From Oscillospiraceae bacterium (GTDB taxonomy: Bacteria > Bacillota > Clostridia > Oscillospirales > Oscillospiraceae): 64,000 nt of DNA. Positions within the stretch are counted from its first letter, which is position 1. Each line of letters opens with the position of its first letter. Shown piece by piece: positions 7,356 to 42,638 of the stretch. Below the pieces are notes generated by a model that worked only from the letters and a program-made list of their open reading frames with translations, was not told the DNA's origin and made no database searches. The stretch covers positions 1 to 64,000 of the forward strand of contig JAFQBN010000004.1 of assembly GCA_017416685.1 (NCBI GenBank). Direction: 5' to 3'. The translations under genes were made by a program, and so were the position numbers.

Positions 7356-7480
7356 GGCAAACAGTCCCCTTTCTTTTTCTACCTGTCACATTTTATCATG
7401 CCGCCCTGCAAAAGTGAAGTACAACTTTGGCTCGGAAACGTTCAACTTTAGCTTTTTTCTCTGTTTTTTTCGTTTTTCTC

Positions 7481-7509
7481 TTGCGCAGAACAAGAGAAAG
7501 GAATAGAAT
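7481..7509 (+). promoter_or_regulatory. Promoter of the nucleotidyltransferase gene
   Basis: TTGCGC-N17-TAGAAT, 31 bp upstream of the ATG at 7540, which has AGGAGGT before it. The same -35 hexamer is used at guaA. Confidence 0.7.
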
Positions 7510-7539
7510 AGAGACCAAAGAACACTAGGAGGTATTACT

Positions 7540-8457: not shown

Positions 8458-8468
8458 TCTCCAGCACA

Positions 8469-8504
8469 AAACCCGGTTCGGCAATGCCGAACCGGGTTTC
8501 CTTT
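8469..8504. terminator. Terminator between the nucleotidyltransferase and rnfB
   Basis: A 13-bp perfect stem (8469-8481 with 8487-8499) followed by a T-rich stretch on the plus strand and preceded by A. It can serve both convergent operons. Confidence 0.9.
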
Positions 8505-8508
8505 TTGA

Positions 8509-9309: not shown

Positions 9310-9323
9310 AACAATACCTCCCG

Positions 9324-10588: not shown

Positions 10589-10604
10589 GTCAGTTCTCTT
10601 CCTT

Positions 10605-13379: not shown

Positions 13380-13417
13380 TCTCTTCGGCCCCTCCCGTCC
13401 TCTGTCATATACCAAAA

Positions 13418-13445
13418 AGTATATGCTTGCACAATGCAAATTCAA
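13418..13445 (-). promoter_or_regulatory. rnf operon promoter with internal palindrome
   Basis: On the minus strand TTGAAT-N16-TATACT (-35 at 13440-13445, -10 at 13418-13423), about 40 bp upstream of the rnfC start. The spacer contains the perfect inverted repeat TTGCA-CAA-TGCAA, a possible operator. Confidence 0.65.
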
Positions 13446-20557: not shown

Positions 20558-20573
20558 GAAAGGATGTTGCATT

Positions 20574-21755: not shown

Positions 21756-21767
21756 GGGGGCAATCGT

Positions 21768-24481: not shown

Positions 24482-24970
24482 ATGGCTCATATCAACGAAG
24501 CTGGCGTCAAAAAGATTTGCGAGATCTGCGACAGATACGCAAACGACAAGACGCCTCTGATGATGATCCTGAGCGACATCCAGAATGAATACGGATACAT
24601 TCCTCTGGAAGTCCAGCAGATTGTATCCGAGAAGACCGGCATCTCCGTGGCAGAGATCTACGGCGTTGTCACCTTCTACTCTTTCTTCTCTCTGGAACCC
24701 AAGGGCAAGTACGTCATCGGCTGCTGCCTGGGTACCGCCTGCTACGTCAAGGGTGCGCAGCAGATCATCGACAAGTTCTCCGAGATCATCGGCATCAAGC
24801 CCGGTGAGACCTCTGCTGACGGTCTGTTCACCCTGGATGCTCTGCGCTGCATCGGCGCCTGCGGCATCGCTCCCGCCGTCACCATCAACGGCAAGGTGTA
24901 CCCCAAGGTCACCGTTGACGCTGTGCCCGGCATCGTGGAAGAATATCGCGCTATGGGAGGTGCCAACTAA
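24482..24970 (+). CDS. hydC: Electron-bifurcating [FeFe]-hydrogenase subunit HydC (NuoE-like)
   Basis: Thioredoxin-like [2Fe-2S] subunit of the trimeric hydrogenase. 162 residues, similar to the NuoE 24-kDa subunit: VAEIYGVVTFYSFFSLEPKGKYVIGCCLGTACYVKGA and DALRCIGACGIAP give the four cluster Cys. The stop overlaps the hydB start (TAATG). A consensus AGGAGGT precedes the ATG. Confidence 0.95.
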   Translation: MAHINEAGVKKICEICDRYANDKTPLMMILSDIQNEYGYIPLEVQQIVSEKTGISVAEIYGVVTFYSFFSLEPKGKYVIGCCLGTACYVKGAQQIIDKFSEIIGIKPGETSADGLFTLDALRCIGACGIAPAVTINGKVYPKVTVDAVPGIVEEYRAMGGAN

Positions 24971-26850: not shown

Positions 26851-26865
26851 TAGGAGGACGATCAA

Positions 26866-28638
26866 ATGGCTAAAGTTAACATTAAGATTGAGGGCGTCTC
26901 CTATCAGGTCGAGGAAGGCTTGACCATTCTGGAGGCCGCCAAGCAGTGCGGCTACGAGATTCCCTCCCTGTGTGCATTCAACCACGGCGAGTGCTCCAAC
27001 GGCTCCTGCCGTGTGTGCCTGGTCGAGGTCGTAGGCGCCCGCGGCCTGGTTGCCTCCTGCGTCTACCCCGTCAACGAGGGCATGGAGATCATCATCTCCT
27101 CCCCCAAGGCCACCGAGGCCCGCCGCGCTTCTGTTGAGCTGCTGCTGTCCAACCACAGCCAGCACTGCCAGCAGTGCGACAAGAACGGCAAGTGCGAGCT
27201 GCTGTACGTCGCTTCCGCTACCGGCGCCCGCGAGGGTCGCTTCGCCGGTTCCAAGACCCCCACTACCTATGACGAGCTGACCCCCACCATCGTGCGCGAC
27301 ACCTCCAAGTGTATCCTGTGCGGCCGCTGCGTGGCCCGCTGCAAGAACGCGCATGGCAAGGACATGGGCATCCTCGGCTTCGAGAACCGTGGCTTCAACA
27401 CCATCGTGGCTCCCGCTGAGAACCGTTCCTTCATCAACTCCCCCTGTATCATGTGCGGTCAGTGTATCAACGTCTGCCCCACCGGCGCTCTGATGGAGAA
27501 GTCCGAGATCGCCAAGGTGGACGCCGCCATGAAGGCCGGCAAGTATGTCATCGTGCAGACCGCTCCTGCCGTCCGCGCCGCTCTGGGCGAGGAGTTCGGC
27601 ATGAAGATCGGCACTCCCGTTACCGGCAAGATGGTCGCTGCTCTGCGCCGTCTGGGCTTCAAGAAGGTGTTTGACACCAACTTCGCTGCCGACCTGACCA
27701 TCATGGAGGAGGGTACCGAGCTGCTCAGCCGTCTGACCAACGGCGGCGTGCTGCCCATGATCACCTCCTGCTCCCCCGGCTGGGTCAACTATGCCGAGTA
27801 CAACTTCGGTGACCTGCTGCCCCACCTGTCCTCCTGCAAGTCTCCCCACGAGATGTTCGGCGCCATCCTGAAGACCTACTATGCCGAGAAGATCGGTGTC
27901 AAGCCCGAGGATATGTACGTTGTGTCCATCATGCCCTGCTCCTGCAAGAAGTTCGAGAAGGAGCGCGATCAGCTGAAGACCAACGGCATGCCCGATGTGG
28001 ACGCCGTTCTGACCACCCGCGAGCTGGGTCGCCTGATCCGCCGCGCCGGCATCAACTTCCCCAAGCTGCCCGACGAGGATTTCGACACCGATATCGTCCA
28101 CGATTACAGCGGTGCCGGCGTTATCTTCGGCGTGACCGGCGGCGTTATGGAGGCTGCTCTGCGCACCGTCTACTTCAAGCTGACCGGCAAGGAGTATGAG
28201 AAGATCAACTTCACCGAGGTCCGCGGTCTGGAGGGCGTGCGCGAGGCTACCATCGACATCAACGGCACTGCCGTCAACGTCGCTGTTGCCAACGGCATGA
28301 AGGGTGCCAAGATCCTGTTGGACGACATCCGCGCCGGCAAGAGCAAGTATCACTTCATCGAGATCATGGGCTGCCCCGGCGGCTGCATCAATGGCGGCGG
28401 CCAGCCCTACGTCCGTGACGTGTTCCTGCCCAACGAGGACGACGACATCATGGACACCTATATCCAGAAGCGCGCCAACGCTCTGTACAGCGAGGACGAG
28501 CGTCAGGTCATCCGTCAGTCTCACAACAACCCCCAGATCAAGGCCCTGTATGACGAGTTCCTGGGCGAGCCCAACTCTCACAAGGCTCACGAGCTGCTGC
28601 ATACCACCTATGCCGCTCGCGAGGGTTTCAACGACTAA
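26866..28638 (+). CDS. hydA: [FeFe]-hydrogenase catalytic subunit HydA
   Basis: Reduces protons to H2 or oxidises H2 in the bifurcating complex. 590 residues: N-terminal [2Fe-2S] domain (CAFNHGECSNGSCRVC), a His-ligated cluster region (HCQQCDKNGKCEL), two [4Fe-4S] motifs (CILCGRCVARC and CIMCGQCINVC), then the H-cluster domain. The three H-cluster signatures are intact: TSCSPGW, MPCSCKKFEKE and MGCPGGCINGGGQP. Together these give a group A trimeric enzyme that couples H2 to ferredoxin plus NAD(P)H. The second signature has Cys where Ala or Ser is more usual. Confidence 0.96.
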   Translation: MAKVNIKIEGVSYQVEEGLTILEAAKQCGYEIPSLCAFNHGECSNGSCRVCLVEVVGARGLVASCVYPVNEGMEIIISSPKATEARRASVELLLSNHSQHCQQCDKNGKCELLYVASATGAREGRFAGSKTPTTYDELTPTIVRDTSKCILCGRCVARCKNAHGKDMGILGFENRGFNTIVAPAENRSFINSPCIMCGQCINVCPTGALMEKSEIAKVDAAMKAGKYVIVQTAPAVRAALGEEFGMKIGTPVTGKMVAALRRLGFKKVFDTNFAADLTIMEEGTELLSRLTNGGVLPMITSCSPGWVNYAEYNFGDLLPHLSSCKSPHEMFGAILKTYYAEKIGVKPEDMYVVSIMPCSCKKFEKERDQLKTNGMPDVDAVLTTRELGRLIRRAGINFPKLPDEDFDTDIVHDYSGAGVIFGVTGGVMEAALRTVYFKLTGKEYEKINFTEVRGLEGVREATIDINGTAVNVAVANGMKGAKILLDDIRAGKSKYHFIEIMGCPGGCINGGGQPYVRDVFLPNEDDDIMDTYIQKRANALYSEDERQVIRQSHNNPQIKALYDEFLGEPNSHKAHELLHTTYAAREGFND

Positions 28639-28658: not shown

Positions 28659-28692
28659 AAAGGGTGGCGTACCATTTGGTACGCCACCCTTT
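28659..28692 (+). terminator. hydCBA terminator
   Basis: A 15-bp perfect stem (28659-28673 with 28678-28692) followed by T residues, 20 bp after hydA. Confidence 0.92.
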
Positions 28693-28702
28693 TTATGTAA
28701 TG

Positions 28703-28734
28703 AAAAAGCGTTCGGCTTATGCCGAACGCTTTTT
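28703..28734. terminator. Terminator of the mdh-frd operon
   Basis: AAAAAGCGTTCGGC-TTAT-GCCGAACGCTTTTT, a 14-bp stem with A/T flanks that works on both strands and lies 15 bp beyond the frdA stop. Confidence 0.92.
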
Positions 28735-28748
28735 CGTTATAGCAATGC

Positions 28749-30356
28749 TCAGGCGCGCTTGCCGCGATTGGTGTAGTCGGGCAGCAGCTTGGGAGAAACG
28801 ACCTCGGTCTCGATGCCGGCGGCGGCGATCTCCTTCTCGAACTTCTCGATATGCTCCAGAGTCAGCTTACCAACCTTGGTTCCCTTGGCCTTGGCAGCCG
28901 CATTCTGACCGGCACTGCGGCCAAAGACGATGATGTCCAGCAGAGAGTTGCCCATCAGGCGGTTCTTACCGTGGATACCGCCAACAGCCTCGCCGGCCAC
29001 AAACAGGTTGTTGATGTTGGTGGTCATGCAGTCCTCGGTGATGTCCAGACCGCCGTTCTGGTAGTGCAGGGTGGGATAGACCAGAATAGGTTCCTTGCGG
29101 ATATCAATGCCATACTTATCAAACATTCTCCACATGGCGGGAATTCGCTTCATAATGGTACCCTCGCCGCCGATCTTCTCGATCATGGGAGTGTCCAGCC
29201 AAACGCCCTTTCCGTTTCCGGTGTCCACGCCGTTGTCACGCTCGCTGCACTCGCGGATGATGGAGGCGGCAGACACATCGCGGGTCTCCAGAGGATGCAT
29301 GAACACTTCGCCATTCACGTTGACCAGCTTGGCACCCAGCGAGCGAACTTTTTCAGTAACCAGCGCGCCAAAGATCTGCTCGGGGAACGCAACGCCGGTG
29401 GGATGGTACTGCAGAGTCTCGGCATACAGGAGTTTTGCTCCGGCCCGGTAACCCAGCACCAGACCGTCGGCGGTGGCGCCGTAGTGGTTGGAGGTGGGGA
29501 ACCCCTGATAGTGCATACGGCCTGCGCCGCCGGTTGCGATAACCACGGTCTTGGCCTTGGCCACCATCAGCTCGCGGGTCTCCATGTTCATCAGGACGGC
29601 GCCGGCAGCGTTGCCGTTCTCGTCCAAAATCAGCTCGATAGCCGCGGTGAAGTCGATGACGGGGATGTTGCGGTTGAGGACCTCATCACGCAGGGTGCGC
29701 ATAATTTCGGCACCGGAGTAGTCCTTGGCCGCGTGCATACGCTTGCGGGAGGTGCCGCCGCCGTGGGTGGTGATCATGGTGCCGTCGGCATCCTTGTCAA
29801 ATTCCACACCCAGCTCGCTCAGCCACTTGATGGCAATGGGGGCATCGCACACCAGCTTGCTCAGCAGCTCGCGCTTGGCAGCAAAGTGGCCGCCGCCGAA
29901 GGCATCCACAAAGTGGATGGCGGGAGAGTCGTTGGGCTTATCAGCGGCCTGAATACCGCCCTCGGCCATCATGGTGTTGGCGTCGCCGATGCGCAGCTTG
30001 GTGACGATCATAACGTCGGCACCGGCCTCGTGAGCCTCGATAGCCGCGGAAGATCCGGCACCGCCGCCGCCGATGACCAGCACGTCGGTCTCGTAGTCGG
30101 GATGCTCCAGATCCACGCTGTCAGCAGTGATGCGGCTGTGAGCCTGCAGGATGGCAGCCAGCTCGTGCGGGACTTTGTCGCCCTTGTTGGGGCCGATCTT
30201 CAGCACATCAAACTGATCCTGCTTGTAGTCAGGATGGAAGGCGGCCAGCAGATCTTCCTTCTGCTTGGCGGTCATGCGGGCAGGCTCCAGGGCGATGTTC
30301 TTCTCCCGCGCCTGCTCGACCAGCTTCAAAGACTTCTGAAAATTCTCGGAATACAT
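28749..30356 (-). CDS. frdA: Soluble fumarate reductase, flavoprotein subunit
   Basis: Reduces fumarate to succinate in the cytoplasm using FAD. 535 residues. FAD dinucleotide motif VLVIGGGGAGSSAAIEA is at about 92-108. Substrate-site elements are present: YHPTG, ALVTEKVRSLGAKLVN with ETRDVSAA (catalytic Arg) and YPTLHYQNGGL (substrate His). The C-terminal VAGEAVGGIHGKNRLMGNSLLDIIVFGRSAG is the family signature. An 80-residue N-terminal extension precedes the FAD domain. No signal peptide and no membrane-anchor gene follow, so electrons must come from soluble partners. Last gene of the eleven-gene operon, 15 nt after frdB. Confidence 0.9.
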   Translation of the reverse strand: MYSENFQKSLKLVEQAREKNIALEPARMTAKQKEDLLAAFHPDYKQDQFDVLKIGPNKGDKVPHELAAILQAHSRITADSVDLEHPDYETDVLVIGGGGAGSSAAIEAHEAGADVMIVTKLRIGDANTMMAEGGIQAADKPNDSPAIHFVDAFGGGHFAAKRELLSKLVCDAPIAIKWLSELGVEFDKDADGTMITTHGGGTSRKRMHAAKDYSGAEIMRTLRDEVLNRNIPVIDFTAAIELILDENGNAAGAVLMNMETRELMVAKAKTVVIATGGAGRMHYQGFPTSNHYGATADGLVLGYRAGAKLLYAETLQYHPTGVAFPEQIFGALVTEKVRSLGAKLVNVNGEVFMHPLETRDVSAASIIRECSERDNGVDTGNGKGVWLDTPMIEKIGGEGTIMKRIPAMWRMFDKYGIDIRKEPILVYPTLHYQNGGLDITEDCMTTNINNLFVAGEAVGGIHGKNRLMGNSLLDIIVFGRSAGQNAAAKAKGTKVGKLTLEHIEKFEKEIAAAGIETEVVSPKLLPDYTNRGKRA

Positions 30357-30371
30357 AGCGCGCTCCCCTCC

Positions 30372-31046
30372 TTACTTCTCGATCTCGCGGTTGTTGTACA
30401 GCTCTTTCATCTCATCGATGGGTTTCTGCATGAGAGCCTCGATCAGTTCCTTGAAATCACCGTTCTTAATCTCTTTCACACGGTCCTCCAAATGGCCGCA
30501 TCCGGGCGCCAGATACTTGCCGTTGATGCGGCGGGCCAGCATGGCCACCTGAGGATGAGAGATGCCGGCGGGGCAGCGGGAGGAACACACGCCGCACATC
30601 ACGCAGTCAAAGGACTCCTCAGCGCACTTTTCAAAGTCGCCGCGCTGAGCGTAAGCGATGTACTGCATAACGTTCAGTCCCTGAGTGCAGGCCTTGGTGC
30701 AGGCATTGCAGCCGATACAGGCGTAGATCTCGGGGTACAGCTGCATCATGACAGCCTCGGTGGTGGAAACCTTCTCGATGTCGTAGACCTGCTTGACCAG
30801 AGGGAAGAACGGCAGCGTGGCAATATACATGTTGTCCTCCACCTTGGTCTGGCAGGCAAGGCACGCGTGCAGCTCACGGTCGCCCTTGATGCGGTAGATG
30901 GTGGCGCAGGCGCCGCAGAAGCCGTTACGGCAGCCGCAGCCGCGGACCAGCTGGTAGCCTGCGTACTCCATGGCGGTCATAATGGTAAGATTTTCGGGTA
31001 CCTCGTACTTCTTACCAAACAGAAAAATATTTACTGTCTTTTCCAT
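30372..31046 (-). CDS. frdB: Fumarate reductase iron-sulfur subunit
   Basis: Electron-transfer partner of the flavoprotein. 224 residues. The N-terminal plant-type [2Fe-2S] domain has CGCRNGFCGACA then CLAC. The C-terminal domain has CIGCNACTKACTQ and CVMCGVCSSRCP, giving two clusters. It differs from classical FrdB, where the 3Fe-4S cluster contacts quinone and a membrane anchor; no such anchor is coded here. The 12-nt gap to the Flx-like reductase gene suggests FrdB docks to the Flx/Hdr module. Confidence 0.88.
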   Translation of the reverse strand: MEKTVNIFLFGKKYEVPENLTIMTAMEYAGYQLVRGCGCRNGFCGACATIYRIKGDRELHACLACQTKVEDNMYIATLPFFPLVKQVYDIEKVSTTEAVMMQLYPEIYACIGCNACTKACTQGLNVMQYIAYAQRGDFEKCAEESFDCVMCGVCSSRCPAGISHPQVAMLARRINGKYLAPGCGHLEDRVKEIKNGDFKELIEALMQKPIDEMKELYNNREIEK

Positions 31047-31058
31047 ACCTATTCTCCT

Positions 31059-31886
31059 TTAATACTCGGCAGGCAGCTCGTCCAGCTCATCACAGCGGAA
31101 CACAGGGCCGTCCTTGCAGACATATTTGGCGCCCACGTTGCATCTGCCGCATTTACCCACGCCGCACTTCATGCGCAGTTCCAAGGTGGTGTAAACGTTG
31201 GTCTTTTCAAAGCCAATGCTGCACAGGCCTTCCAGCGTAAACTTGATCATGATGGGCGGGCCGCACAGGACCGCCACCTTGTTGGTGTCGAAGCCCAGCT
31301 CCTTGACATAGTTGGGAACGAAACCCACATGGCCGTCCCACCCCTCCTGAGGATTATCAATGGTCAGGTGGACATTGACGCCGCTGTCGGTGGACCACTC
31401 TTCGATGATCTCCTTGTAGTCCAGCAGATCATCCTTACTGCGGGAACCGTAGACGATGTCGATCTTACCGTAGCGGTCGCGGTAGTGGCGGCAGTAGTTG
31501 ATGACGGAGCGCAGCGGAGCCAGCCCCACGCCGCCGGCGATAAACAGCAGATCACGGCCGGCGAACACGTCGTCCACAGGGAAGGGCTTTCCGTAGGGGC
31601 CGCGGATGGTGATCTGCTGGCCGGGTTCGGCCTGATGCAGCCAATCGGTCACGCAGCCGCACTTTTTAATGGAGAATTCCATGTACTCGGTGTTGGTGGG
31701 AGACGAGGTAATGGAGAACATGGCCTCGCCCACACCGGGGATGGAGAGCATGGCACACTGACCGGGTCTGTGGTCAAAGGCCTTTTTCCCATCGGGCGTC
31801 ACGACCCGGAAGGTCTTGATATCCGGAGTATCAATGCGCACGTCGGTAATAACACCGAGCTGGGGAATCAGGGTTTCGTTTTTCAC
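31059..31886 (-). CDS. FlxA-like FAD/NAD(P)-binding oxidoreductase subunit
   Basis: A ferredoxin-reductase-fold subunit of 275 residues, like FlxA of FlxABCD and the gamma subunit of sulfhydrogenases. It should oxidise NAD(P)H. The FAD domain contains RPGQCAMLSIPG and MFSITSSP (the RxYS-type FAD motif degenerate here as MFSITSS). The NAD domain has LLFIAGGVGLAPLRS, then VLCGPPIMIKFT. The C-terminal CGVGKCGRCNVG binds a [2Fe-2S] cluster. I chose the GTG at 31886, with GGAGGGG 7 nt upstream; it overlaps the previous stop (GTGA). Specificity for NADH or NADPH cannot be read reliably. Confidence 0.87.
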   Translation of the reverse strand: MKNETLIPQLGVITDVRIDTPDIKTFRVVTPDGKKAFDHRPGQCAMLSIPGVGEAMFSITSSPTNTEYMEFSIKKCGCVTDWLHQAEPGQQITIRGPYGKPFPVDDVFAGRDLLFIAGGVGLAPLRSVINYCRHYRDRYGKIDIVYGSRSKDDLLDYKEIIEEWSTDSGVNVHLTIDNPQEGWDGHVGFVPNYVKELGFDTNKVAVLCGPPIMIKFTLEGLCSIGFEKTNVYTTLELRMKCGVGKCGRCNVGAKYVCKDGPVFRCDELDELPAEY

Positions 31887-32908
31887 TTGGTCTCCCCTCC
31901 GATCTTCTTCATGACCTTCACGATGTTCATCGAAATGGGACACTTGGCCAGACAGCGGCCGCAGCCGACACAGCTGAACAATCCGTCGTTGTTCTCGGGG
32001 TAGTAAACCAGCTTGTGCATAAAGCGCTGGCGGAAGCGTTCCTTTTGGGTCAGGCGGTTGTTGCCGTGAGCCATACGGGTGAACTCGGAATACATGCAGG
32101 AGTCCCAGCAGCGGTAACGGATCACGCCGTTGCCGGTGTTGAAATCCTTAATGTCATAGCACTGACAGGTGGGACACACAAAGGTGCAGGTACCGCAGCC
32201 AAGGCAGGACTGGGACAGCTCATCCCACTCGGGCCGGTTAAACAGCTCGTCGGTCTTGCCGCCGCCGAAGCCGTCGGTGGTGACGTTCTTCAGGGGCAGC
32301 TTATCCATGATCTTGCCGATCTGCTCCTTCTGGGCCTTTACCACGGCATCGTCGCTGTCCTCGGTCAGGGCGGCGATCTTGCTCAGCAGCTGCTCACCTT
32401 TTTCGGTGTTGGCCCGGAAGAAGATCTCCGTCTCGGTCTTCCATGCGGTGATGTCACCGGCAGGCTCGGCGGGATCAATGCCGAAAGTCTTGCAGAAACA
32501 GGTCTCGGAGGGTCGGGTACATGCCAGAGACACGATCACGCCGTGGGCGCGGCGATTTGCGTAGAAACTGTCCACAGGCTCGCTCAGGAACACGCGGTCC
32601 AGAATGTCGAAGCTCTTCACGTCGCAGGCACGGACACCGAAAACAACGAAGTCCTCGCCCTCGGTGCGGGTGTCGATGATCTCGATATTCTTTCCTTCGG
32701 TCTTGAAGCGCATCAGATCCTCGGTCTGGGGGAAGAAGAAATCCTTGGGGCTGCGCACGGTATTCAGGGCGCCGCTCCAGACAGTCCCCTCCTCCCACTT
32801 CTTGTAGGCAGCACTGCCATCAGTCTGGTCCACAGGCAGATACAGTGCGGCGTTCTTTGCGATCTGCGCAAATACAAGATCGATCTTATCAAGAGAACAC
32901 TTACGCAT
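31883..32908 (-). CDS. FlxB-like iron-sulfur subunit (4Fe-4S dicluster)
   Basis: A 341-residue protein of the family that includes the sulfhydrogenase beta subunit and FlxB/FlxC. The N-terminal ~220 residues carry the family segment VVFGVRACDVKSFDILDRVF and SLACTRPSETCFC. The C-terminal ferredoxin-like part has CLGCGTCTFVCPTCQC and CVGCGRCLAKCP. It likely wires the NAD(P)H-oxidising subunit to HdrA/MvhD. The ATG at 32908 has GGAGGG before it. It overlaps the FlxA-like gene by 4 nt and the preceding gene by 8 nt. Confidence 0.85.
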   Translation of the reverse strand: MRKCSLDKIDLVFAQIAKNAALYLPVDQTDGSAAYKKWEEGTVWSGALNTVRSPKDFFFPQTEDLMRFKTEGKNIEIIDTRTEGEDFVVFGVRACDVKSFDILDRVFLSEPVDSFYANRRAHGVIVSLACTRPSETCFCKTFGIDPAEPAGDITAWKTETEIFFRANTEKGEQLLSKIAALTEDSDDAVVKAQKEQIGKIMDKLPLKNVTTDGFGGGKTDELFNRPEWDELSQSCLGCGTCTFVCPTCQCYDIKDFNTGNGVIRYRCWDSCMYSEFTRMAHGNNRLTQKERFRQRFMHKLVYYPENNDGLFSCVGCGRCLAKCPISMNIVKVMKKIGGETK

Positions 32909-33899
32909 TGTTATCCCTCCTGTCAAAAACCTCACCGGGTTCCAGATCCTCGGTGGTGTAGTTCACCAGCGGGGCGCGGGAGCCAACCTCGGCTCCGGCC
33001 TGATAGTCACCGTAGAACTCATTGATATCCTTGATGAACTTGCGGTTGAGCAGGTGCAGGGGGATGTTCTGGGGACATACGCGGGAACACTCACCGCAGT
33101 CGGTGCAGCGGCCGGCCACGTGGAACGCGCGGATGATGTGGAACAGCTTCTCCTCAAAGCTGTTGGCGGGAGACTTGTTCTCCACACCGGAGTTGGGGTT
33201 GTCAAACACGCACTTCTCGCAGGTGCAGGCGGGGCAGGCATCGCGGCAGGCGTTGCAGCGGATGCAGCGGGACAGCTCGTTCTGCCAGAAGGCAAACCGC
33301 TCGTCGGGACTCATCGCCTCCAGTCGTGCCACCTCGTCAAAGCGGGCGGAGTCGATCACATCGCCCTCCTCCCCCATCAGCTCGTCATAGGCCACGTGTT
33401 TTTTGCTCTTGCAGTTGATGCAGCGCTCGGCCAGCACGTCGGCAGCGGCAACGCTCACGGGAGCGTCGGCGTACAGGGTGGTGACTTTCATATCTTCGCC
33501 GGTGGTGTCGATGGAAGAAATACCGTCACCGCAGACGGCCTTCACCTTGGCGATGTCAGCCATCCCTTCACAGGGGATACCCACGGCGTACACCTTCTCC
33601 CGGTCGAAGCGATGTTCAGTCAGCAGCTGGTTAAAGCTGTATGTATCGCAGGGCTTCAGAAACACCAGGATCTTACCCTCGCACTTACCGGCCCGGGCGA
33701 CCAGATATTTGGAAACATTTGCGCCGCAGAAATCATTGAACACGAAGCCGGCGTTCAATTCCTCAACACAGTTGAACATCTTTGGGGTCACGTCGTAGTC
33801 AAACTCACCGGCCGCCCAGCCCAGTACGCAGCTGACCGTGCCGTTGGAGAGAAGCTCAGATGCTTTGTTCAGCAGCTGTTCACGGGTTACTTTTTGCAT
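32901..33899 (-). CDS. FlxC-like iron-sulfur subunit, paralogue of its downstream neighbour
   Basis: 332 residues with the same architecture as the next gene: a ~170-residue N-terminal domain with VFLKPCDTYSFNQLL, where the neighbour has FGVRACDVKSFDIL, then CINCK and two four-Cys motifs (CIRCNACRDACPAC and CTDCGECSRVCP). The pair corresponds to FlxB and FlxC of the known FlxABCD module, both expected to be electron conduits. Which is B and which is C is arbitrary here. It overlaps mvhD by 13 nt. Confidence 0.83.
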   Translation of the reverse strand: MQKVTREQLLNKASELLSNGTVSCVLGWAAGEFDYDVTPKMFNCVEELNAGFVFNDFCGANVSKYLVARAGKCEGKILVFLKPCDTYSFNQLLTEHRFDREKVYAVGIPCEGMADIAKVKAVCGDGISSIDTTGEDMKVTTLYADAPVSVAAADVLAERCINCKSKKHVAYDELMGEEGDVIDSARFDEVARLEAMSPDERFAFWQNELSRCIRCNACRDACPACTCEKCVFDNPNSGVENKSPANSFEEKLFHIIRAFHVAGRCTDCGECSRVCPQNIPLHLLNRKFIKDINEFYGDYQAGAEVGSRAPLVNYTTEDLEPGEVFDRRDNNA

Positions 33900-34321
33900 C
33901 TCAGATCCTCCAATCTCTTGTTCTCGCCGAGGGCGGCTACAGTCTGGACAAAGTCATTCATAGTGGCTGCAAACTTGGCGCCTTCGGCAGCAGATACCCA
34001 CTCCACGCGGGTGCGTTCCTTCTCGATGCCCAGATAGTCCAGCATGGAGAACAGCGCGGCCATACGGCGGCGGGTATAGTAATTGCCGGAGGTGTAGTGG
34101 CAGTCGCCGGGATGGCAGCCGCAGATGATCACGCCGTCAGCACCGCGCTGGAAGGCCCGCAGGATAAACATGGGGTTCACACGGCAGGAACAGGGCACGC
34201 GAATGATCTTCACTTCGGCGGGATAGGCCAGGCGGTTGTTGCCGGCCAGGTCCGCACCTGCGTAGGAACACCAGTTGCAGCAAAATGCAACGATCAAAGG
34301 CTTATACTCATTTACTTGCAT
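33887..34321 (-). CDS. mvhD: MvhD/FlxD-type [2Fe-2S] connector subunit
   Basis: A 144-residue subunit that links electron-input subunits to HdrA in methanogens and in FlxABCD-HdrABC complexes. The family pattern is intact: AFCCNWCSYAGADLAG, IIRVPCSCRVNPMFILRAFQRGADGVIICGCHPGDCHY. It overlaps both hdrA (10 nt) and the FlxC-like gene (13 nt), a sign of tight coupling. Without a hydrogenase in the operon, NAD(P)H through the Flx-like subunits is the likely donor. Confidence 0.93.
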   Translation of the reverse strand: MQVNEYKPLIVAFCCNWCSYAGADLAGNNRLAYPAEVKIIRVPCSCRVNPMFILRAFQRGADGVIICGCHPGDCHYTSGNYYTRRRMAALFSMLDYLGIEKERTRVEWVSAAEGAKFAATMNDFVQTVAALGENKRLEDLRCKK

Positions 34322-36306
34322 ATCGCGTCAACCTCCGCCATGATCTGGGAATTGGCAAAGCCCTTCAGGTCCATCGCGCCGGACGGGCAGGCAACGGTGC
34401 AGGCACCGCAGCCCTGGCACACAGCGGGATTGACCACCGCCACGCGCCGCACCTTGGTGGTGCGGTCAGGCATGCGGAATTCCTTCTCTTCGTAGCTGAT
34501 GGCACCGTAGGGGCAGACGTTTGCGCAGGAAGAGCAGCCGTTGCACATCAGCTCGTTGGAACCGGCCACGCAGGGGTTGCCGGTCAGCTTATCTTTGGCA
34601 AGCAGACCGATGACCTTGGAGGCCGCGGCACCGGCCTGAGACACGGTCTCGGGAATGTCCTTGGGACCCTGACAGGCACCGGACAGGAATACGCCGGCAG
34701 TGGGACTTTCCACGGGCCGCAGCTTGGGATGGGCCTCGGTAAAGAAATCGTTGGTGTCCATACTGGCAGTCAGCATAGTGGCCAGAGGACGGGCGGACTG
34801 ATCAGGCTCGATGGCTGCAGCCAGAACCACCAGATCCGCATCAATGTGCAGCTGCTTGTTGGCGATCAGGTCAGAGGCCTGGACCTTCAGCTTGTCGCCC
34901 TCAGGGGTGACCTTGCCCACCATGCCCTTGATGTACTTCACGCCGTACTCTTCCACCGCGCGGCGGTAGAACTCATCGAAGTTCTTGCCGGGGGTGCGCA
35001 CATCGATGTAGAACACGTACACCTCGGTATCGGGGTACTTGTCGCGGGTCAGCATGGCGTGCTTGGCGGTATACATGCAGCAGATCTTGGAGCAGTACTC
35101 CTTGCCCTTCTCGGCACAGGCGTCGCAGCGGGATCCCACGCACTGCACAAAGACAATGGTGTGGGGATGCTTGCCGTCGGAAGGACGCAGCAGCTTACCG
35201 GCAGAGGGACCGGCAGCGTTGGTCAGACGTTCAAACTCCAGAGAGGTGATAACGTCCTTGGACTGGCTGTACGCAAATTCATCGAACTTGTCCATACTGA
35301 TGGGATTGAAGCCGGTTGCCACCACGATGGCGCCGTACTTCTCCTGAATGAACTCGTCCTTCTGGGTGTAATCGATGGCGCCAGCAGCACAGACCTTGGC
35401 GCACACGCCGCACTTGCCGTTCTTGAGCATATTGCACGCATTGGGGTCAATGGTAGCAACCTTGGGAACAGCCTGGGCGAAGGGGATGTAGATGGCACTG
35501 CGGTTGTCCATGCCCAGATTGAATTCGTTGGGAACTTTCTTCATGGGACACTTTTCAAGACACGCGCCGCAGCCCGTACACACGTCTTCCTTGACGTAGC
35601 GGGCCTTCTTCTTGATGGTCACGTCGAAATTGCCCACAAAGCCGCTGACCTCGGTCACTTCGCTGTAAGAGAAGATGCGGATATTCTCGTTCTGCGCCAC
35701 GTCCACCATCTTGGGGGTCAGGATACAGGCTGCGCAGTCCAACGTCGGGAAAGTTTTGTCCAGTTGGGCCATCTTGCCGCCGATGGTGGGCTTTTTCTCC
35801 ACAATATCCACGGGGAAACCGGCGTCGGCAATGTCCAAAGCGGTCTGAATGCCCGCGATGCCGCCGCCGATAACCAGCGCCCGCTTGGTAACGGGAGACT
35901 CACCGGGAGTCAGGGGGGTATTCAGGTTGACCTTGGCAACGGCAGCCTTGCCCAAAATAACGGCTTTCTCGGTGCCGGTCATCATGTCTTTATGTACCCA
36001 GGAACACTGCTCGCGGATATTGGCGATCTCAACCATGTAGGGATTCAGGCCGGCAGCCGCCGCGGTCTTGCGGAAGGTGGCCTCGTGCATACGGGGAGAG
36101 CAGGAACACACCACAATGCCGGTCAGGTTATGCTCCTTCACAGCCTCCTTGATCATGTCCTGTCCCGCCTGAGAGCACATGTACTGATAGTCGGTGGAGA
36201 AGACCACGCCGGGTTCATTCTTCAATGCTTCCGCGACCGCCTTAACATCCACCGTACCGGCGATGTTGCTGCCGCACCAGCATACAAAGACACCTATTCT
36301 CTGCAT
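34312..36306 (-). CDS. hdrA: HdrA, flavin-based electron-bifurcating subunit
   Basis: Central FAD subunit of heterodisulfide-reductase-type complexes and the probable bifurcation site. 664 residues: N-terminal HdrA domain (VCWCGSNIAG at 9-17, VCSCSPRMHE), FAD motif VIGGGIAGIQTA at about 145, inserted ferredoxin motifs (CTGCGACLEKCP; CGVCAKVC) and C-terminal ferredoxin domain (CNGCSSCANVCP; CQGCGACTVACP). The first Cys pair reads C-W-C where C-H-C is common. It has no fused thioredoxin reductase or HdrA2-type duplication. Confidence 0.94.
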   Translation of the reverse strand: MQRIGVFVCWCGSNIAGTVDVKAVAEALKNEPGVVFSTDYQYMCSQAGQDMIKEAVKEHNLTGIVVCSCSPRMHEATFRKTAAAAGLNPYMVEIANIREQCSWVHKDMMTGTEKAVILGKAAVAKVNLNTPLTPGESPVTKRALVIGGGIAGIQTALDIADAGFPVDIVEKKPTIGGKMAQLDKTFPTLDCAACILTPKMVDVAQNENIRIFSYSEVTEVSGFVGNFDVTIKKKARYVKEDVCTGCGACLEKCPMKKVPNEFNLGMDNRSAIYIPFAQAVPKVATIDPNACNMLKNGKCGVCAKVCAAGAIDYTQKDEFIQEKYGAIVVATGFNPISMDKFDEFAYSQSKDVITSLEFERLTNAAGPSAGKLLRPSDGKHPHTIVFVQCVGSRCDACAEKGKEYCSKICCMYTAKHAMLTRDKYPDTEVYVFYIDVRTPGKNFDEFYRRAVEEYGVKYIKGMVGKVTPEGDKLKVQASDLIANKQLHIDADLVVLAAAIEPDQSARPLATMLTASMDTNDFFTEAHPKLRPVESPTAGVFLSGACQGPKDIPETVSQAGAAASKVIGLLAKDKLTGNPCVAGSNELMCNGCSSCANVCPYGAISYEEKEFRMPDRTTKVRRVAVVNPAVCQGCGACTVACPSGAMDLKGFANSQIMAEVDAICK

Positions 36307-36321
36307 TTGTCCTCTCCTCCT

Positions 36322-36711
36322 TTACTTGGTGTATTTGCGGAACGCGCTGACCAGCAGCTGCTGGGGCGTATCCTCGTCGATCATGGCGGGCACGTCGTTG
36401 GCCGTCATGTGGTTGGCACCCTGCTGACGGATAACAGCCAGCCGCACAGCCTCCACCAGCTTGGCGGGCTGAACGCTGCGGGGGCAGCGGTCGATACAGG
36501 CAAAGCAGGACAGACACTTGTACAGGCTTTTGGAGTTCAGCAGCGGCTCGATGTCCCCATTCTCCACCATGTTGACAAACTGGTGGGGATGGTACTCCAT
36601 CTCGTCATAGGCGGGACAGGTGGCGGAACACTTGCCGCAGCGCATGCACTTGCGCGGATTGACCCCGCTGATGCGGACGATCTCTTCCTGAAGATACTTG
36701 TTAGTTTCCAT
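36322..36711 (-). CDS. hdrC: HdrC iron-sulfur subunit
   Basis: A 129-residue ferredoxin-like subunit with CMRCGKCSATCP and CLSCFACIDRCP, the HdrC pattern. It bridges HdrA and HdrB. The soluble form, with no membrane cytochrome (HdrE) nearby. It overlaps hdrB by 11 nt. Confidence 0.94.
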   Translation of the reverse strand: METNKYLQEEIVRISGVNPRKCMRCGKCSATCPAYDEMEYHPHQFVNMVENGDIEPLLNSKSLYKCLSCFACIDRCPRSVQPAKLVEAVRLAVIRQQGANHMTANDVPAMIDEDTPQQLLVSAFRKYTK

Positions 36712-37495
36712 TTGTATCCTCCTTTACGCCCAGCGCCTCGGCCAGCAGCTCGGTGAAGTAGACCACGGGAATGTCCGCGCCGTTCTTCACCAGATTGTAC
36801 TTGCACAGAGGACAGGCCGTAATGATCATCTCAGCACCGGCGGCCTTGGCGTTACGGATGATGGCTTCGCTGTTCTTCCTTGCGGTGTCGGGACACTCCA
36901 CGGAAATATAGCCGCCGCAGCACTCGTTTCGCTTGGCGTAGACGATCGCTTCCGCGCCCAACGCCCGGATAAAATCCTCCATAATGGTGGGGTTTTCCGG
37001 ATCATCCATGTGCATTACGGTGTTGGGCCGCAGCAGCAGGCAGCCGTAGTAGGCGGCGATCTTCTTGCCCGCAAGGCTGTTGACAACAGCCTGCTTGACC
37101 TTGTCAAAGCCCACGATATCGCGCAGCATCTCCAAATAGTGATAGACCTCAGTCTCGCCGCAGTAGGGACCATCGGCACCCATATAGCGGTTGACCTTAT
37201 CGGCGAAGGCTGCGTTGGTCTGCATAGCGTGGTTGGTCTGCTTGATCACGTTATGACAGGCAGAGCAGACCGTCACCAGCGGCTGCCCCTTCTCCCCCGC
37301 ATCCTTCAGCGCACGCACAGAGGACAGCTTGGTGGCAACCTCGTCATTGGCGGTGGTGAACACGCCGCCGCAGCACTGCCAGTTTTCAATTTCTTCCAGC
37401 GCAACACCCAGAACTTCTGCCGCCCTGCGGGCGTACAGATCAAGGTCTCTGGCCTTGTTCTTCAGGGTGCAGCCCGGGAAATAACTAACCTTCAT
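36701..37495 (-). CDS. hdrB: HdrB, CCG-domain catalytic subunit
   Basis: In methanogens HdrB reduces the CoM-S-S-CoB disulfide at two non-cubane [4Fe-4S] clusters. Both CCG motifs are complete here: C9-C41-C42-C77-C80 and C153-C193-C194-C229-C232, with the usual spacings. 264 residues. The start is the ATG at 37495 (GGAGGT upstream); a TTG one codon earlier is less likely. Since CoM and CoB are absent from clostridia, the natural acceptor is unknown. In this operon a small thiol or disulfide, a DsrC-like protein, or direct transfer to FrdB are the options. Confidence 0.93.
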   Translation of the reverse strand: MKVSYFPGCTLKNKARDLDLYARRAAEVLGVALEEIENWQCCGGVFTTANDEVATKLSSVRALKDAGEKGQPLVTVCSACHNVIKQTNHAMQTNAAFADKVNRYMGADGPYCGETEVYHYLEMLRDIVGFDKVKQAVVNSLAGKKIAAYYGCLLLRPNTVMHMDDPENPTIMEDFIRALGAEAIVYAKRNECCGGYISVECPDTARKNSEAIIRNAKAAGAEMIITACPLCKYNLVKNGADIPVVYFTELLAEALGVKEDTNGN

Positions 37496-37510
37496 CAAAT
37501 TACCTCCGAT

Positions 37511-38887
<1,377 letters not shown>

Positions 38888-38921
38888 ACTCGATAACATC
38901 CTTTCTTCCATCTTCTTAAAT

Positions 38922-39863
38922 TCACATTTCAATGCTGTTGATAATTGCCTTCAGACACTCCGCACTCTTGTGCAGCGCCTTGACTTCCTCATCATTGAGG
39001 GGCAGCAGGATCTTGCCGTTGCTGCCCTTTTTGCCCACGATGGTCAGCAGGCTCAGACAAACGTCCTCGATCCCGTACTCTCCGTGGAGCATGGTGGAAA
39101 CGGTCAGGGTGGTGTCAATGCCGCTGAGCAGGCACTTGCACAGATGGCACACCGCCATGGTCACCGCGTAGAAGGTAGCACCCTTGCGCTGGATCACGGT
39201 AGCACCGGACTTGCGCACATAATTCTCTACCTCTTCAAAGTCAATGTCGGGATAATCCCCGCCGTTGTGAATGGCGTTCTTATAATCGCGGACAGGAACA
39301 TTGGAAATGTGCGCAATGGACCACGGCACAAACGAGGTATCGCCATGCTCGCCCAGCACATAGGCGTGGACGTTTTTCTCATTGATGTCATAGTATTCGG
39401 CAACGCGGGCGCGCAGACGCGCGGTATCCAGAATAGTTCCGGAGCCGATGATATGTTCTTCGGGAATACCGGAGATCTTATGGAACACATAAGTAAGCAC
39501 GTCCACCGGGTTGCTCACGATAATGTAGATCGCATTGGGCGCATATCTGACGATTTCTTTGGCAACCACCTTGAGCATGTTCACGTTGGTCTGGGCCAGA
39601 TCCAGACGGGATTGTCCGGGTTTTCTCGCCACGCCGGAGGTAATGATCACGATATTGGAGTCGACCGCATCGGCATATTCACCGGCATAGATGGATGCCG
39701 GATGGCTGAAGGGAACGCCCTGCTTGATGTCCATCGCCTCGCCACGGGCCTTCTCATCATTGATGTCGATCATCACGATCTCGGACGCGATGCCCATGAC
39801 CACCAGGCTGTACGCAATGGTGGACCCCACACTTCCGGCACCTACAACGGTAATTTTGTTCAT
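38922..39863 (-). CDS. mdh: LDH-fold malate dehydrogenase (predicted)
   Basis: NAD-dependent 2-hydroxyacid dehydrogenase of 313 residues. NAD motif VVGAGSVGSTIA is at 6-17. Catalytic residues are present: R86 (109 in LDH numbering), D146 (168), R149 (171) and H173 (195) in GEHGDTSF. The specificity loop reads SGVARKPGQSRLDL, so the position that is Gln102 in lactate dehydrogenases is Arg80 here; Gln102 to Arg is the change known to turn LDH into malate dehydrogenase. It is the first gene of the operon, with fumarase and fumarate reductase downstream. LDH remains the alternative, since residue 246 keeps the LDH-like Thr (RKGATFY). Confidence 0.8.
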   Translation of the reverse strand: MNKITVVGAGSVGSTIAYSLVVMGIASEIVMIDINDEKARGEAMDIKQGVPFSHPASIYAGEYADAVDSNIVIITSGVARKPGQSRLDLAQTNVNMLKVVAKEIVRYAPNAIYIIVSNPVDVLTYVFHKISGIPEEHIIGSGTILDTARLRARVAEYYDINEKNVHAYVLGEHGDTSFVPWSIAHISNVPVRDYKNAIHNGGDYPDIDFEEVENYVRKSGATVIQRKGATFYAVTMAVCHLCKCLLSGIDTTLTVSTMLHGEYGIEDVCLSLLTIVGKKGSNGKILLPLNDEEVKALHKSAECLKAIINSIEM

Positions 39864-40274: not shown

Positions 40275-41690
40275 TTACTTGCTCAGATATTCGTCAATTG
40301 CCTTGGCCGCGGTTTTACCGGCTCCCATGGCGGAAATAACAGTGGCCGCTCCGGTGACGGCATCGCCGCCGGCATAGACGCCGCTGCGGGATGTCAGTCC
40401 ATCCTCATTGACTACGATACCGCCTCTGCGGTTGACCTCAAGCCCCTCGGTAGTAGACTTGATCAGGGGGTTGGGAGATGTGCCGATGGACATGACCACG
40501 GTATCCACGTCCAGTTCAAACTCACTGCCGGGGATCTCCACGGGACGTCTTCTGCCTTTCTCGTCGGGTTCGCCCAGCTCCATACGGATGCACTTCATAC
40601 CGGTCACGAAACCGTTCTTGGGATCCCTGGGATCTTCAGGATTGTGGTAACCGAGGATCTCAGTGGGGTTGCACAGGAGCTTAAACTCGATTCCCTCTTC
40701 CTCGGCGTGTTCTACTTCCTCACGGCGGGCGGGCAGCTCCTCCATGGAGCGGCGGTACACGATGTACACAGTCTCGGCACCCAGACGCAGAGCGGTGCGG
40801 GCAGCATCCATAGCCACATTGCCGCCGCCCACGACAGCCACCTTGCCACCCTTCATAATGGGGGTATCGGGGTTATCCAGATAGGCCTTCATCAGGTTGC
40901 TGCGGGTCAGGAACTCGTTGGCGGAGTAGACGCCGCTCAGCGCCTCGCCGGGGATGCCCATAAAGTTGGGCAGACCGGCGCCGGAACCTACAAACACAGC
41001 CTCGTAACCCATGTCGAACATCTCGTCGATGGTCAGGGTCTTGCCGATGACCACATTGGTCTCGATCTTGACGCCCAGCTTGGTCAGGGTGTCGACCTCC
41101 TTGGCTACGATAGCCTTGGGCAGACGGAACTCGGGGATTCCGTAGACCAGAACGCCGCCGGCAGTATGCAGCGCCTCGTACACAGTGACCTCGTAGCCCT
41201 TCTTGGCCAGATCGCCGGCGCAGGTCAGACCGGAGGGACCGGAACCCACGATGGCCACACGGTGACCGTTGCTCTCGGGGCGGACAGGCTCATCCTTGCA
41301 GTAGGTATTGTGCCAGTCGGCCACAAAGCGCTCCAGCCGGCCGATGCCGACAGACTCGCCCTTCACGCCGCGGATGCACTTGGCCTCGCACTGGGTCTCC
41401 TGAGGGCAGACACGGCCGCAGACAGCAGGCAGAGAGGAGGACTTGCTGATGACCTGATAGGCCCCCTCAAAGTCGCCCTCCCGGATCTTTGCAATAAACT
41501 CAGGGATGTGTACCTTAACGGGGCAGCCGTCCACACAGGGCATATTCTTGCAGTTCAGGCAGCGCAGCGCCTCGTCAATGGCCGCTTCCTCGCTGTAGCC
41601 CAGAGCCACTTCATCAAAATTATGGGCACGGACCTTGGGGTCCTGCGTGGGCATGACGTTGCGCTGGGGAGACATATTTGCCGTTGCCAT
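40275..41690 (-). CDS. nfnB: NfnB, large subunit of NADH-dependent ferredoxin:NADP+ oxidoreductase
   Basis: Bifurcating transhydrogenase subunit of 471 residues, similar to the glutamate synthase small chain. N-terminal cluster Cys lie in CLNCKNMPCVDGCPV and AVCGRVCPQETQCEAKC. FAD is bound at VAIVGSGPSGLTCA and NADP(H) at VAVVGGGNVAMDAARTA. The C-terminal GGDAVTGAATVISAMGAGK is the family ending. The start at 41690 has AAGGAGG upstream and follows nfnA by 1 nt. A stand-alone GltD is the alternative, but the NfnA gene just upstream and absence of gltB favour Nfn. Confidence 0.92.
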   Translation of the reverse strand: MATANMSPQRNVMPTQDPKVRAHNFDEVALGYSEEAAIDEALRCLNCKNMPCVDGCPVKVHIPEFIAKIREGDFEGAYQVISKSSSLPAVCGRVCPQETQCEAKCIRGVKGESVGIGRLERFVADWHNTYCKDEPVRPESNGHRVAIVGSGPSGLTCAGDLAKKGYEVTVYEALHTAGGVLVYGIPEFRLPKAIVAKEVDTLTKLGVKIETNVVIGKTLTIDEMFDMGYEAVFVGSGAGLPNFMGIPGEALSGVYSANEFLTRSNLMKAYLDNPDTPIMKGGKVAVVGGGNVAMDAARTALRLGAETVYIVYRRSMEELPARREEVEHAEEEGIEFKLLCNPTEILGYHNPEDPRDPKNGFVTGMKCIRMELGEPDEKGRRRPVEIPGSEFELDVDTVVMSIGTSPNPLIKSTTEGLEVNRRGGIVVNEDGLTSRSGVYAGGDAVTGAATVISAMGAGKTAAKAIDEYLSK

Positions 41691-41691
41691 T

Positions 41692-42546
41692 TCAGTGCGC
41701 CTCCTTCTTGAACAGGTTGCAGGTTTCCTCGTGAGCGTGGCGCTCGAAGGGGAAATACATTCTGCCGCGGGACATAGCCTCGTCGAAGTCCACCTCATAG
41801 CCGTTGAAGTCGGGGCCATCCACGCAGGCAAACTTGGTCACCTTCTCACCGTTCACGTTCAGGGTCAGGCGGCAGCCGCCGCACATGCCGGTACCGTCGA
41901 TCATAATGGGGTTCATGGACACGGTAACAGGGACCGCAAAAGGCTTGGCTGCGGCGACAACGAATTTCATCATGATCAGCGGACCGATGGTGATGATCAT
42001 GTCGAACTTTTCACCGTTTTCCAGCATTTGCTTCAGGGGTACGGTGACGTTGCCGTGTTCGCCGTAAGAGCCATCATCACTCATAACGCGCAGGGTATCG
42101 GAACAGGCCTTAAACTCATCCTCCAGAATGACCAGATCCTTGTTTCGGAAACCGATGATACTGGTGACCTCAGCGCCCATCTCGTGCAGCGCCTCGGCAA
42201 TGGGCATGGCAATGGCACAGCCAACGCCGCCGCCAACGATACAGACCTTCTTCAGGCCGTCCAGATGGGTGGCGGTACCCAGAGGACCCACGAAGTCCTG
42301 CAGACAGTCGCCCGCCATCTTGTGGGACAGCTTCTCGGTGGTGGAACCAACGATCTGGAAAATGATCTTCACCGTACCCGCCTGCTTATCCACACCGGCG
42401 ATGGTCAAGGGGATGCGCTCGCCCATCTCGTCCACCCGCAGAATGATAAACTGACCGGGCTTGGCCTTGTTCGCAACGAGAGGCGCTTCCACCTGAAGCT
42501 GAACAACAGTCGGGTTCAGTGCTTTTCTGTCAACAATTCTATACAT
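41692..42546 (-). CDS. nfnA: NfnA, small FAD/NAD-binding subunit of the bifurcating transhydrogenase
   Basis: A 284-residue ferredoxin-reductase-like subunit. The FAD segment is ERIPLTIAGVD (PL-S/T type), the NAD segment KVCIVGGGVGCAIAMPIAEAL, and the C-terminal [2Fe-2S] Cys are in MCGGCRLTLNVNGEKVTKFACVDGP. It starts with MYRIVDRKALNP, typical of NfnA and PyrK-like proteins. Promoter candidate at 42639-42667 on the minus strand. Confidence 0.92.
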   Translation of the reverse strand: MYRIVDRKALNPTVVQLQVEAPLVANKAKPGQFIILRVDEMGERIPLTIAGVDKQAGTVKIIFQIVGSTTEKLSHKMAGDCLQDFVGPLGTATHLDGLKKVCIVGGGVGCAIAMPIAEALHEMGAEVTSIIGFRNKDLVILEDEFKACSDTLRVMSDDGSYGEHGNVTVPLKQMLENGEKFDMIITIGPLIMMKFVVAAAKPFAVPVTVSMNPIMIDGTGMCGGCRLTLNVNGEKVTKFACVDGPDFNGYEVDFDEAMSRGRMYFPFERHAHEETCNLFKKEAH

Positions 42547-42638
42547 AATATGCCTCCATTCACATTTTGGCACCAACTTATGCGCCGCAGCACGCAAAGG
42601 TACATAATGATCTTACCATTCCTCTGCACTGATTTTGA

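Follow-up and report, generated by a model that had tools for sequence, protein, structure and literature searches.

A soluble fumarate reductase encoded with a complete Flx-Hdr complex in Oscillospiraceae: a likely route for ferredoxin-generating fumarate reduction

Introduction

An Oscillospiraceae bacterium (assembly GCA_017416685.1) carries, in a single operon, the genes of a fumarate reductase, FrdBA, and those of an FlxABCD-HdrABC complex, which raises the question of whether the two work together and whether fumarate serves as an acceptor in flavin-based electron bifurcation. The operon occupies positions 28749–39863 of the window analyzed here, a stretch of 64,000 nucleotides (nt) at the start of contig JAFQBN010000004.1. 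A first-pass annotation, made from the letters of the window, had proposed that the operon encodes a fumarate-bifurcating supercomplex. We consider it likely that the products of the operon form a soluble branch leading to succinate, in which FlxABCD-HdrABC-FrdAB bifurcates electrons from NADH to ferredoxin and fumarate. What stands firm in the earlier proposal is the functional link: gene order, co-occurrence of unlinked genes, a common HdrB clade and the lack of a DsrC gene together support well, at the level of sequence comparison, a link between FrdBA and this type of Flx-Hdr. From these data we infer the remaining parts, namely a physical complex, an electron path with transfer from HdrB to FrdB, the coupling and its direction.

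Results

The eleven-gene operon

According to the list of open reading frames (ORFs) and the family matches, eleven genes run on the minus strand from 39863 down to 28749 in the order mdh-fumC-hdrBCA-flxDCBA-frdBA. With the likely starts taken for mdh (39863), fumC (38887), hdrB (37495) and flxA (31886), neighboring genes overlap by 4–35 nt or stand 12–34 nt apart, the widest spacing (34 nt) being that between mdh and fumC, and purine-rich ribosome-binding sites precede most of the eleven genes. All ORFs are present on this strand, and the family matches fit the names that had been given to them; the eleven-gene, same-strand operon of the first-pass annotation was thus borne out.

The first gene, mdh (38922–39863; the longer ORF starts at 39890), encodes an NAD-dependent dehydrogenase of the lactate/malate dehydrogenase (LDH/MDH) family, probably a malate dehydrogenase, and fumC (37511–38887) a class II fumarate hydratase (TIGR00979, 722 bits with a cut-off of 665). 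The Hdr part consists of hdrB (36701–37495), a heterodisulfide-reductase-type subunit with two CCG (non-cubane cluster) motifs in two PF02754 stretches, hdrC (36322–36711), with two [4Fe-4S] motifs and a TIGR03290 match below the cut-off, and hdrA (34312–36306), the flavin adenine dinucleotide (FAD) subunit and candidate bifurcation site, present in an all-cysteine form (phmmer 1.3e-205 to HdrA of 5odc). These genes are followed by flxD (33887–34321), an MvhD-like electron-entry subunit (PF02662, 2.6e-55), flxC (32901–33899), an Fe-S subunit matched in part by formate dehydrogenase beta chains (8rvu_E, for example), flxB (31883–32935), an Fe-S subunit matching the sulfhydrogenase beta chain 9nez_B (3.6e-47), and flxA (31059–31886), an FAD/NAD(P)-binding, probably NADH-oxidizing protein with a [2Fe-2S] site (PF00970, PF00175 and PF10418). 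All seven FlxABCD-HdrABC subunits are therefore encoded in a single cluster. The operon ends with frdB (30372–31046), a short iron-sulfur subunit (PF13510/PF00111 and PF13183), and frdA (28749–30356), the fumarate reductase flavoprotein (PF00890). Between frdA and the convergent hydA, two strong hairpins with T runs (28660–28738), likely transcript ends, were spotted by eye in the sequence and are absent from the pattern-scan listing. As had been noted before, Frd has no membrane anchor here: judged by gene content, with no transmembrane prediction made, the operon holds no additional gene able to serve as one.

Conservation of the gene order within the family and the class

Three sets of relatives were searched. 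In a family sample of 200 genomes from 106 genera, FrdB was found in 19 genomes (12 genera). FlxC matches with E < 1e-60 occurred in 18 genomes, all of them with FrdB close by on the same strand; in the 19th FrdB-positive genome the contig starts inside frdB. In seven more family genomes, FrdB was absent and the FlxC matches were weaker and for the most part partial. From named-species genomes, a scan yielded at least 572 relatives, and among the best 80, which were kept, hdrBCA-flxDCBA-frdBA was complete, ordered and on one strand in 62/62 eligible loci, that is, loci on contigs reaching far enough on both sides. In a class sample of 391 genomes from 223 genera, 54 genomes (the source genome included) from 36 genera were positive. 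Sixty loci were fetched for this set (53 class matches and 7 of 18 other family matches), and the nine-gene core was complete and ordered in 45 of the 46 eligible ones; the exception, L154, has the rearranged order frdBA-hdrBCA-flxDCBA. The named-relative and class sets overlap, with some contigs in both. Since 62/62 and 45/46 eligible relatives keep the core, chance can be excluded as the cause of the gene order, and the gene-order search that had been suggested for this locus came out in favor of the association. The two upstream genes are held more loosely than the core: where enough upstream DNA was present, fumC was found in 58/63 and mdh in 52/63 named-relative loci, and in 22/42 and 31/42 class-set loci, respectively. 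A search of viral contigs found nothing.

Catalytic and cofactor sites

For the Hdr, Flx and Frd proteins, residue conservation was evaluated in alignments of the window with the class-level loci (phylum loci excluded), gaps being set aside. The mdh product scored above the curated L-lactate dehydrogenase cut-off (TIGR01771, 337 versus 304 bits) and below those for malate dehydrogenase (PRK06223, 278 versus 283 bits; TIGR01763, 215 versus 352 bits). At the position that we take to set substrate specificity in this family, presumably Gln in LDH and Arg in the malate type, all 85 aligned copies have Arg (Arg89, counted from the 39890 start), and malate is therefore the likelier substrate. His182, Arg158 and Asp42 are also kept in 85/85 copies. 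The enzyme is possibly a malate dehydrogenase that evolved from an LDH; the earlier name, mdh-like, agrees with the specificity residue but not with the profile cut-offs.

In FrdA, residues 88–492 align with residues 4–417 of the 602-residue Escherichia coli FrdA, so that the protein has the FAD and capping parts but apparently lacks most of the C-terminal domain. The N-terminal extension of 87 residues is covered by no listed family match and has invariant positions among relatives. His318, Glu335, Arg338, Arg359, His431 and Arg466 are each found in 132/132 copies; mapped through the alignment with E. coli FrdA, they include the substrate-binding His and Arg residues and the shuttle Arg. The position of the His that would bind FAD covalently is Asn127 in 132/132 copies, and FAD is thus probably non-covalently bound. 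An assignment as L-aspartate oxidase is not favored by the score (TIGR00551, 270 bits with a cut-off of 453) or the operon context. No second FrdA of the operon kind was found in the assembly, where the other FrdA match is a distant NadB/TfrA-like protein on contig 12.

FrdB has 224 residues, with one [2Fe-2S] motif and two CxxCxxCxxxC motifs whose cysteines are conserved in 98–100% of a 141-row alignment. It gave partial matches to RnfC and TfrB profiles and no PF02754 match, hence no CCG domain. For HdrB, the best NCBIfam models were SdhE and HdrB, both below cut-off, and the protein matches the HdrB chains of several solved Hdr complexes in the PDB. The cysteines that we take to be cofactor ligands are kept across relatives in HdrA, HdrB, HdrC and FlxA: HdrA Cys194 is conserved in 100% of 117 rows, the ten candidate ligand cysteines of the two HdrB CCG motifs and eight HdrC cysteines in 100% of 113 rows, and FlxA Cys260/265/268/276 (counted from the 31943 start) in 100% of 136 rows. 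The same holds for the FlxC cysteine motifs at 160–163, 212–230 and 265–275 (100% of 129 rows).

The conservation of both CCG cluster sites bears on a different way in which fumarate could be reached. In a thiol/disulfide relay, Flx-Hdr would bifurcate electrons from NADH to ferredoxin and a low-molecular-weight or protein disulfide, and the resulting thiols would be oxidized by FrdBA with HdrB, as in the thiol:fumarate reductase of methanogens, leaving fumarate as an indirect acceptor only. Because the CCG motifs are intact, we keep this reading in view, and the NCBIfam TfrB model, which matches FrdB as well as HdrB, would suit it too. However, without a CCG domain in FrdB, no thiol-oxidizing site is known in FrdBA by itself, and the operon copy of HdrB is the only one found in the assembly at 1e-15. 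In agreement with the first-pass annotation, no DsrC was found either: PF04358 was unmatched across the whole 98.9% complete assembly, and a control search did find it in E. coli. On balance, a thiol relay seems unlikely. Direct contact between HdrB and FrdB is favored, since FrdB is without a thiol-oxidizing domain while the TfrB profile matches FrdB and HdrB alike; TfrB could be a natural fusion of two partners like these.

Architectures across the phylum and the HdrB lineage

The phylum sample comprised 398 genomes, of which 39, including the source genome, have FrdB; the loci of the 38 others were fetched. A second order, frdBA-hdrBCA-flxDCBA, was found in five genomes (L169, L172, L175 and L178, with L162 from the class sample), and L186 has hdrCBA-flxDCBA-frdBA. 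Eleven loci, some truncated (L183–L185, L187, L188, L190, L191 and L193–L196), share a double-HdrA architecture: hdrC-hdrB-hdrA, a large second HdrA-like protein, flxD, an FlxC-like gene and frdBA. Where complete, the second HdrA-like protein is about 1050–1490 residues long, with extra Fe-S domains in L188, the one scanned, and the genes after frdBA in this group fall into the clusters of 2-oxoacid oxidoreductase and, in many of the loci, succinyl-CoA ligase. Five loci have hdrCB-frdBA, and in 17 loci frdBA occurs without hdr in the examined stretch, which is short on the upstream side in L165, L177 and L197; the neighbors there fall into the clusters of fumarase, malic enzyme or 2-oxoacid oxidoreductase, or encode an unannotated 1144-residue protein or a cytochrome b561-like protein. 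In an FrdA tree of 71 rows, for which, as for the 55-row HdrB tree, the class-level loci were a hand-picked subset, the architecture labels need 7 changes, compared with 34 in shuffles.

The 17 genomes in which frdBA stands without hdr, four genomes with hdrCB-frdBA and the source genome were searched for HdrB. It was present in 12 of the 17, and in all seven of these that were fetched it lies in a separate hdrBCA-flx cluster, one of them cut by the contig end. Among the matches listed, FlxC of whatever type that was near full length on visual judgment (one match spans only residues 2–305 of 327) occurred in 32/39 genomes with FrdB and in 41/359 others (Fisher 2e-20, uncorrected for kinship). 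The 13 phylum genomes with the top FlxC scores (≥393 bits) are all FrdB-positive, by a profile built partly from the genomes that score highest with it. When the family and phylum sets are combined and the source genome is counted once, FrdB accompanies the closest FlxC type in 30/30 genomes.

For comparison, we took the Flx-Hdr clusters of eight FrdB-negative genomes (L252–L259; eight of 20 initially sought). None of the eight has frd, fumC or mdh nearby in the stretches examined. An in-frame TGA stands at the FlxD Cys69 site in 8/8 of these clusters and at the HdrA Cys194 site in 6/8, suggesting that they encode probable selenoproteins; in the window-type proteins the FlxD site is Cys in 100% of 129 rows, and the hdrA and flxD frames are also uninterrupted in the rearranged and unlinked clusters. 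Of the 55 rows of the HdrB tree, 34 (22 window-type, 5 rearranged and 7 unlinked) group together with a support of 100/99, separate from six HdrB sequences of the FrdB-negative clusters (L258 and L259 gave no HdrB, and the L193 and L196 stretches are without hdrB). We read this as one Flx-Hdr lineage that appears dedicated to FrdBA, with FrdBA apparently paired with other Hdr types elsewhere.

Several observations weigh against a dedicated, direct partnership. The other frd-linked HdrB sequences (L186, nine double-HdrA rows and five hdrCB rows) are placed in the tree with those of the FrdB-negative clusters. It is also common for Flx-Hdr to occur where FrdB is absent, as the 41/359 genomes above show. 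HdrB retains the two cluster sites for disulfide reduction, although a protein that only relays electrons would have no obvious need of them. FrdBA occurs in four distant genomes (G954, G656, G874 and G653) in which neither HdrB (at 1e-15) nor FlxC (at 1e-40) was detected, and the FrdBA module can therefore exist without Hdr; G715, negative in the HdrB search yet with a high-scoring FlxC, was not counted among them. The earlier expectation that frd and hdr should be associated in relatives thus holds within the class and fails in these four genomes. A cytochrome b561-like gene stands beside frdBA in L197 (Pfam match), L198 and L200 (same sequence cluster), which suggests a membrane-fed version of FrdBA. 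Finally, the linkage may come from shared regulation alone.

The four Hdr-less genomes and the b561-like neighbors would fit co-transcription without a joint enzyme: Flx-Hdr would use another acceptor, the soluble FrdBA would be fed by reduced ferredoxin or another carrier, and the genes would be kept together for fermentative redox balance. Against this, the window-type HdrB sequences group together whether or not frd is linked, the partners are kept together in two different gene orders, and the closest FlxC type comes with FrdB in 30/30 genomes. We therefore regard co-transcription alone as improbable.

Proposed electron path and its direction

In the joint enzyme that we prefer, malate dehydrogenase and fumarase would supply fumarate, and FlxABCD-HdrABC-FrdAB would oxidize two NADH, sending one electron pair to ferredoxin and the other to fumarate. 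Electrons would enter from NADH at FlxA (FAD and [2Fe-2S]) and pass via FlxB/FlxC and FlxD to the FAD of HdrA, where the pairs would be split. The low-potential electrons would exit via the ferredoxin-like domain of HdrA, and the high-potential electrons would run through HdrC, HdrB, FrdB and FrdA to fumarate. The net reaction would be 2 NADH + fumarate + 2 Fd(ox) → 2 NAD+ + succinate + 2 Fd(red), where Fd is ferredoxin, and the reduced ferredoxin could supply the Rnf complex or the [FeFe] hydrogenase of the window.

The potential of the fumarate/succinate couple is +33 mV. With this value, NADH at −320 mV and ferredoxin at −420 mV (PMC5861303), hand arithmetic gives about −49 kJ/mol for the net reaction, and about −33 kJ/mol if ferredoxin is set at −500 mV. 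These values argue against the complex running in reverse, as an electron-confurcating succinate oxidase, and so does the presence of a phosphoenolpyruvate carboxykinase (PEPCK) gene. Hdr complexes can in principle be reversible, and the 2-oxoacid oxidoreductase and succinyl-CoA ligase neighbors of frdBA in the double-HdrA loci would accord with such a direction; for this operon we nevertheless find reverse operation very improbable.

Genome context and origin of the operon

The assembly has 1.86 Mb in 38 contigs, with a contamination of 3.08%. Four Rnf-type genes lie in the window on the minus strand, RnfB-like (8509–9309), Rnf-Nqr (9917–10690), RnfD-type (11132–12085) and RnfC (12060–13445), which confirms the Rnf complex named in the first-pass annotation. 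The PEPCK gene, cut by a contig end, could feed the fumarate route. The operon is flanked by genes of an NADH-dependent group A6 [FeFe] hydrogenase (24970–28638) and by an NfnAB-like pair (40275–42597), neither of which was detected in the examined stretches of the best 80 named relatives.

The FrdB of G248, a genome from another family, is 94% identical to that of the window, with only 57% identity in gyrB, and the operon is absent from all three same-genus genomes sampled; horizontal transfer is therefore likely. The neighboring NfnB is 77–82% identical to that of five of six matched other-family genomes (68% for the sixth), 82% to that of the same-family genome G114 and 60–63% to those of the same genus, and gyrB, from another contig, is 79–81% identical to that of the same genus compared with 57–65% for other families. 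The tetranucleotide pattern of five of six 10-kb window pieces fits the rest of the assembly at 0.95–0.97. We prefer a native location with probable horizontal acquisition over a mis-binned contig. For the piece 1–10000 the value is 0.81; other contigs reach down to 0.67, and the piece lies inside their range. Elsewhere in the window, the strand shown has a tandem repeat with many His codons (21206–21435), placed inside a long minus-strand frame (20523–22409), for which no NCBIfam match was found at 1e-20.

Discussion

The proposal can be carried further, though tentatively and with a probability that we would put somewhat below an even chance. In this reading, a distinct Flx-Hdr lineage, marked by Cys rather than TGA in HdrA and FlxD, has specialized in fumarate, and its HdrB passes electrons straight to FrdBA, which acts as a plug-in module. 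Together they would make a soluble fumarate reductase that needs no quinone, yields reduced ferredoxin, is widespread in gut Clostridia and has probably been transferred between families; elsewhere in the phylum, relatives of this FrdBA would work with other Hdr or donor modules. In the available portions of the related literature we found neither the grouping of HdrB, nor the contrast between cysteine and TGA, nor the use of FrdBA as a module.

If the proposal is right, many Clostridia of the gut and rumen would save energy when they form succinate, with neither quinones nor a membrane-bound fumarate reductase: the oxidation of NADH by fumarate would cover the cost of reducing ferredoxin, which could then drive ion pumping by Rnf or H2 production. 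Estimates of ATP yield, and of how succinate and hydrogen compete in the rumen, would then change. The strict conservation of the core and the existence of a CRISPR interference (CRISPRi) tool for Pseudoclostridium thermosuccinogenes, reported in the available text of PMC9044749, make the proposal directly testable.

Caution is in place, as a 2018 review (PMC5861303) points out, in the portion available, that gene presence alone is no proof of bifurcation. A fumarate-linked Hdr system is absent from the rows examined of its table, and no enzymatic test of fumarate-linked Flx-Hdr bifurcation was found in the open-licence literature as far as its text was accessible.

Compared with known systems, the operon combines familiar parts. 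The FlxABCD-HdrABC of Desulfovibrio vulgaris (Ramos 2015, as cited in the excerpts of PMC7282089 and PMC10920352) has the same seven subunits; its acceptor is thought to be DsrC, the partner that was not found in the present assembly. The traits of a quinol:fumarate reductase are lacking, with no anchor gene in the operon (by gene content, with no transmembrane prediction made) and Asn127 at the site of the covalent-FAD His. TfrAB and the 8-methylmenaquinol:fumarate reductase with SdhE have in common with the operon a related flavoprotein and an HdrB-like partner, but the cut-offs of neither family are reached (FrdA scored 342 bits with the TfrA model, whose cut-off is 718), and no CCG domain is fused to FrdB here. 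In tubeworm symbionts and Thioflavicoccus, tfrAB is interspersed with flxABCD-hdrABC and korABCD, and a complex was suggested (PMC6315080, in the part available). Going by that description, the likeness lies in a fumarate reductase beside Flx-Hdr; the enzyme there is named a thiol:fumarate reductase and belongs to a reverse tricarboxylic acid cycle cluster of Gammaproteobacteria.

The closest counterpart is the 'succinate operon' of P. thermosuccinogenes, which, in the accessible text of PMC7282089, holds a fumarate hydratase gene, seven Flx-Hdr locus tags and two fumarate reductase genes, and was about 4-fold up under CO2 limitation, not significantly for all subunits. Judged by gene content and locus-tag number (CDQ83_RS03320–RS03365), fumarase, Flx-Hdr and Frd follow one another there in the same order as in the window; a possible succinate transporter comes next, and the operon legend names no malate dehydrogenase gene. 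The authors assume a link between the reduction of fumarate and that of ferredoxin and cite for this proposal Koendjbiharie and van Kranenburg 2019 (Preprints 10.20944/preprints201912.0288). Fumarate-linked Flx-Hdr bifurcation has thus already been proposed by others; we find it plausible, and the comparisons made here strengthen it.

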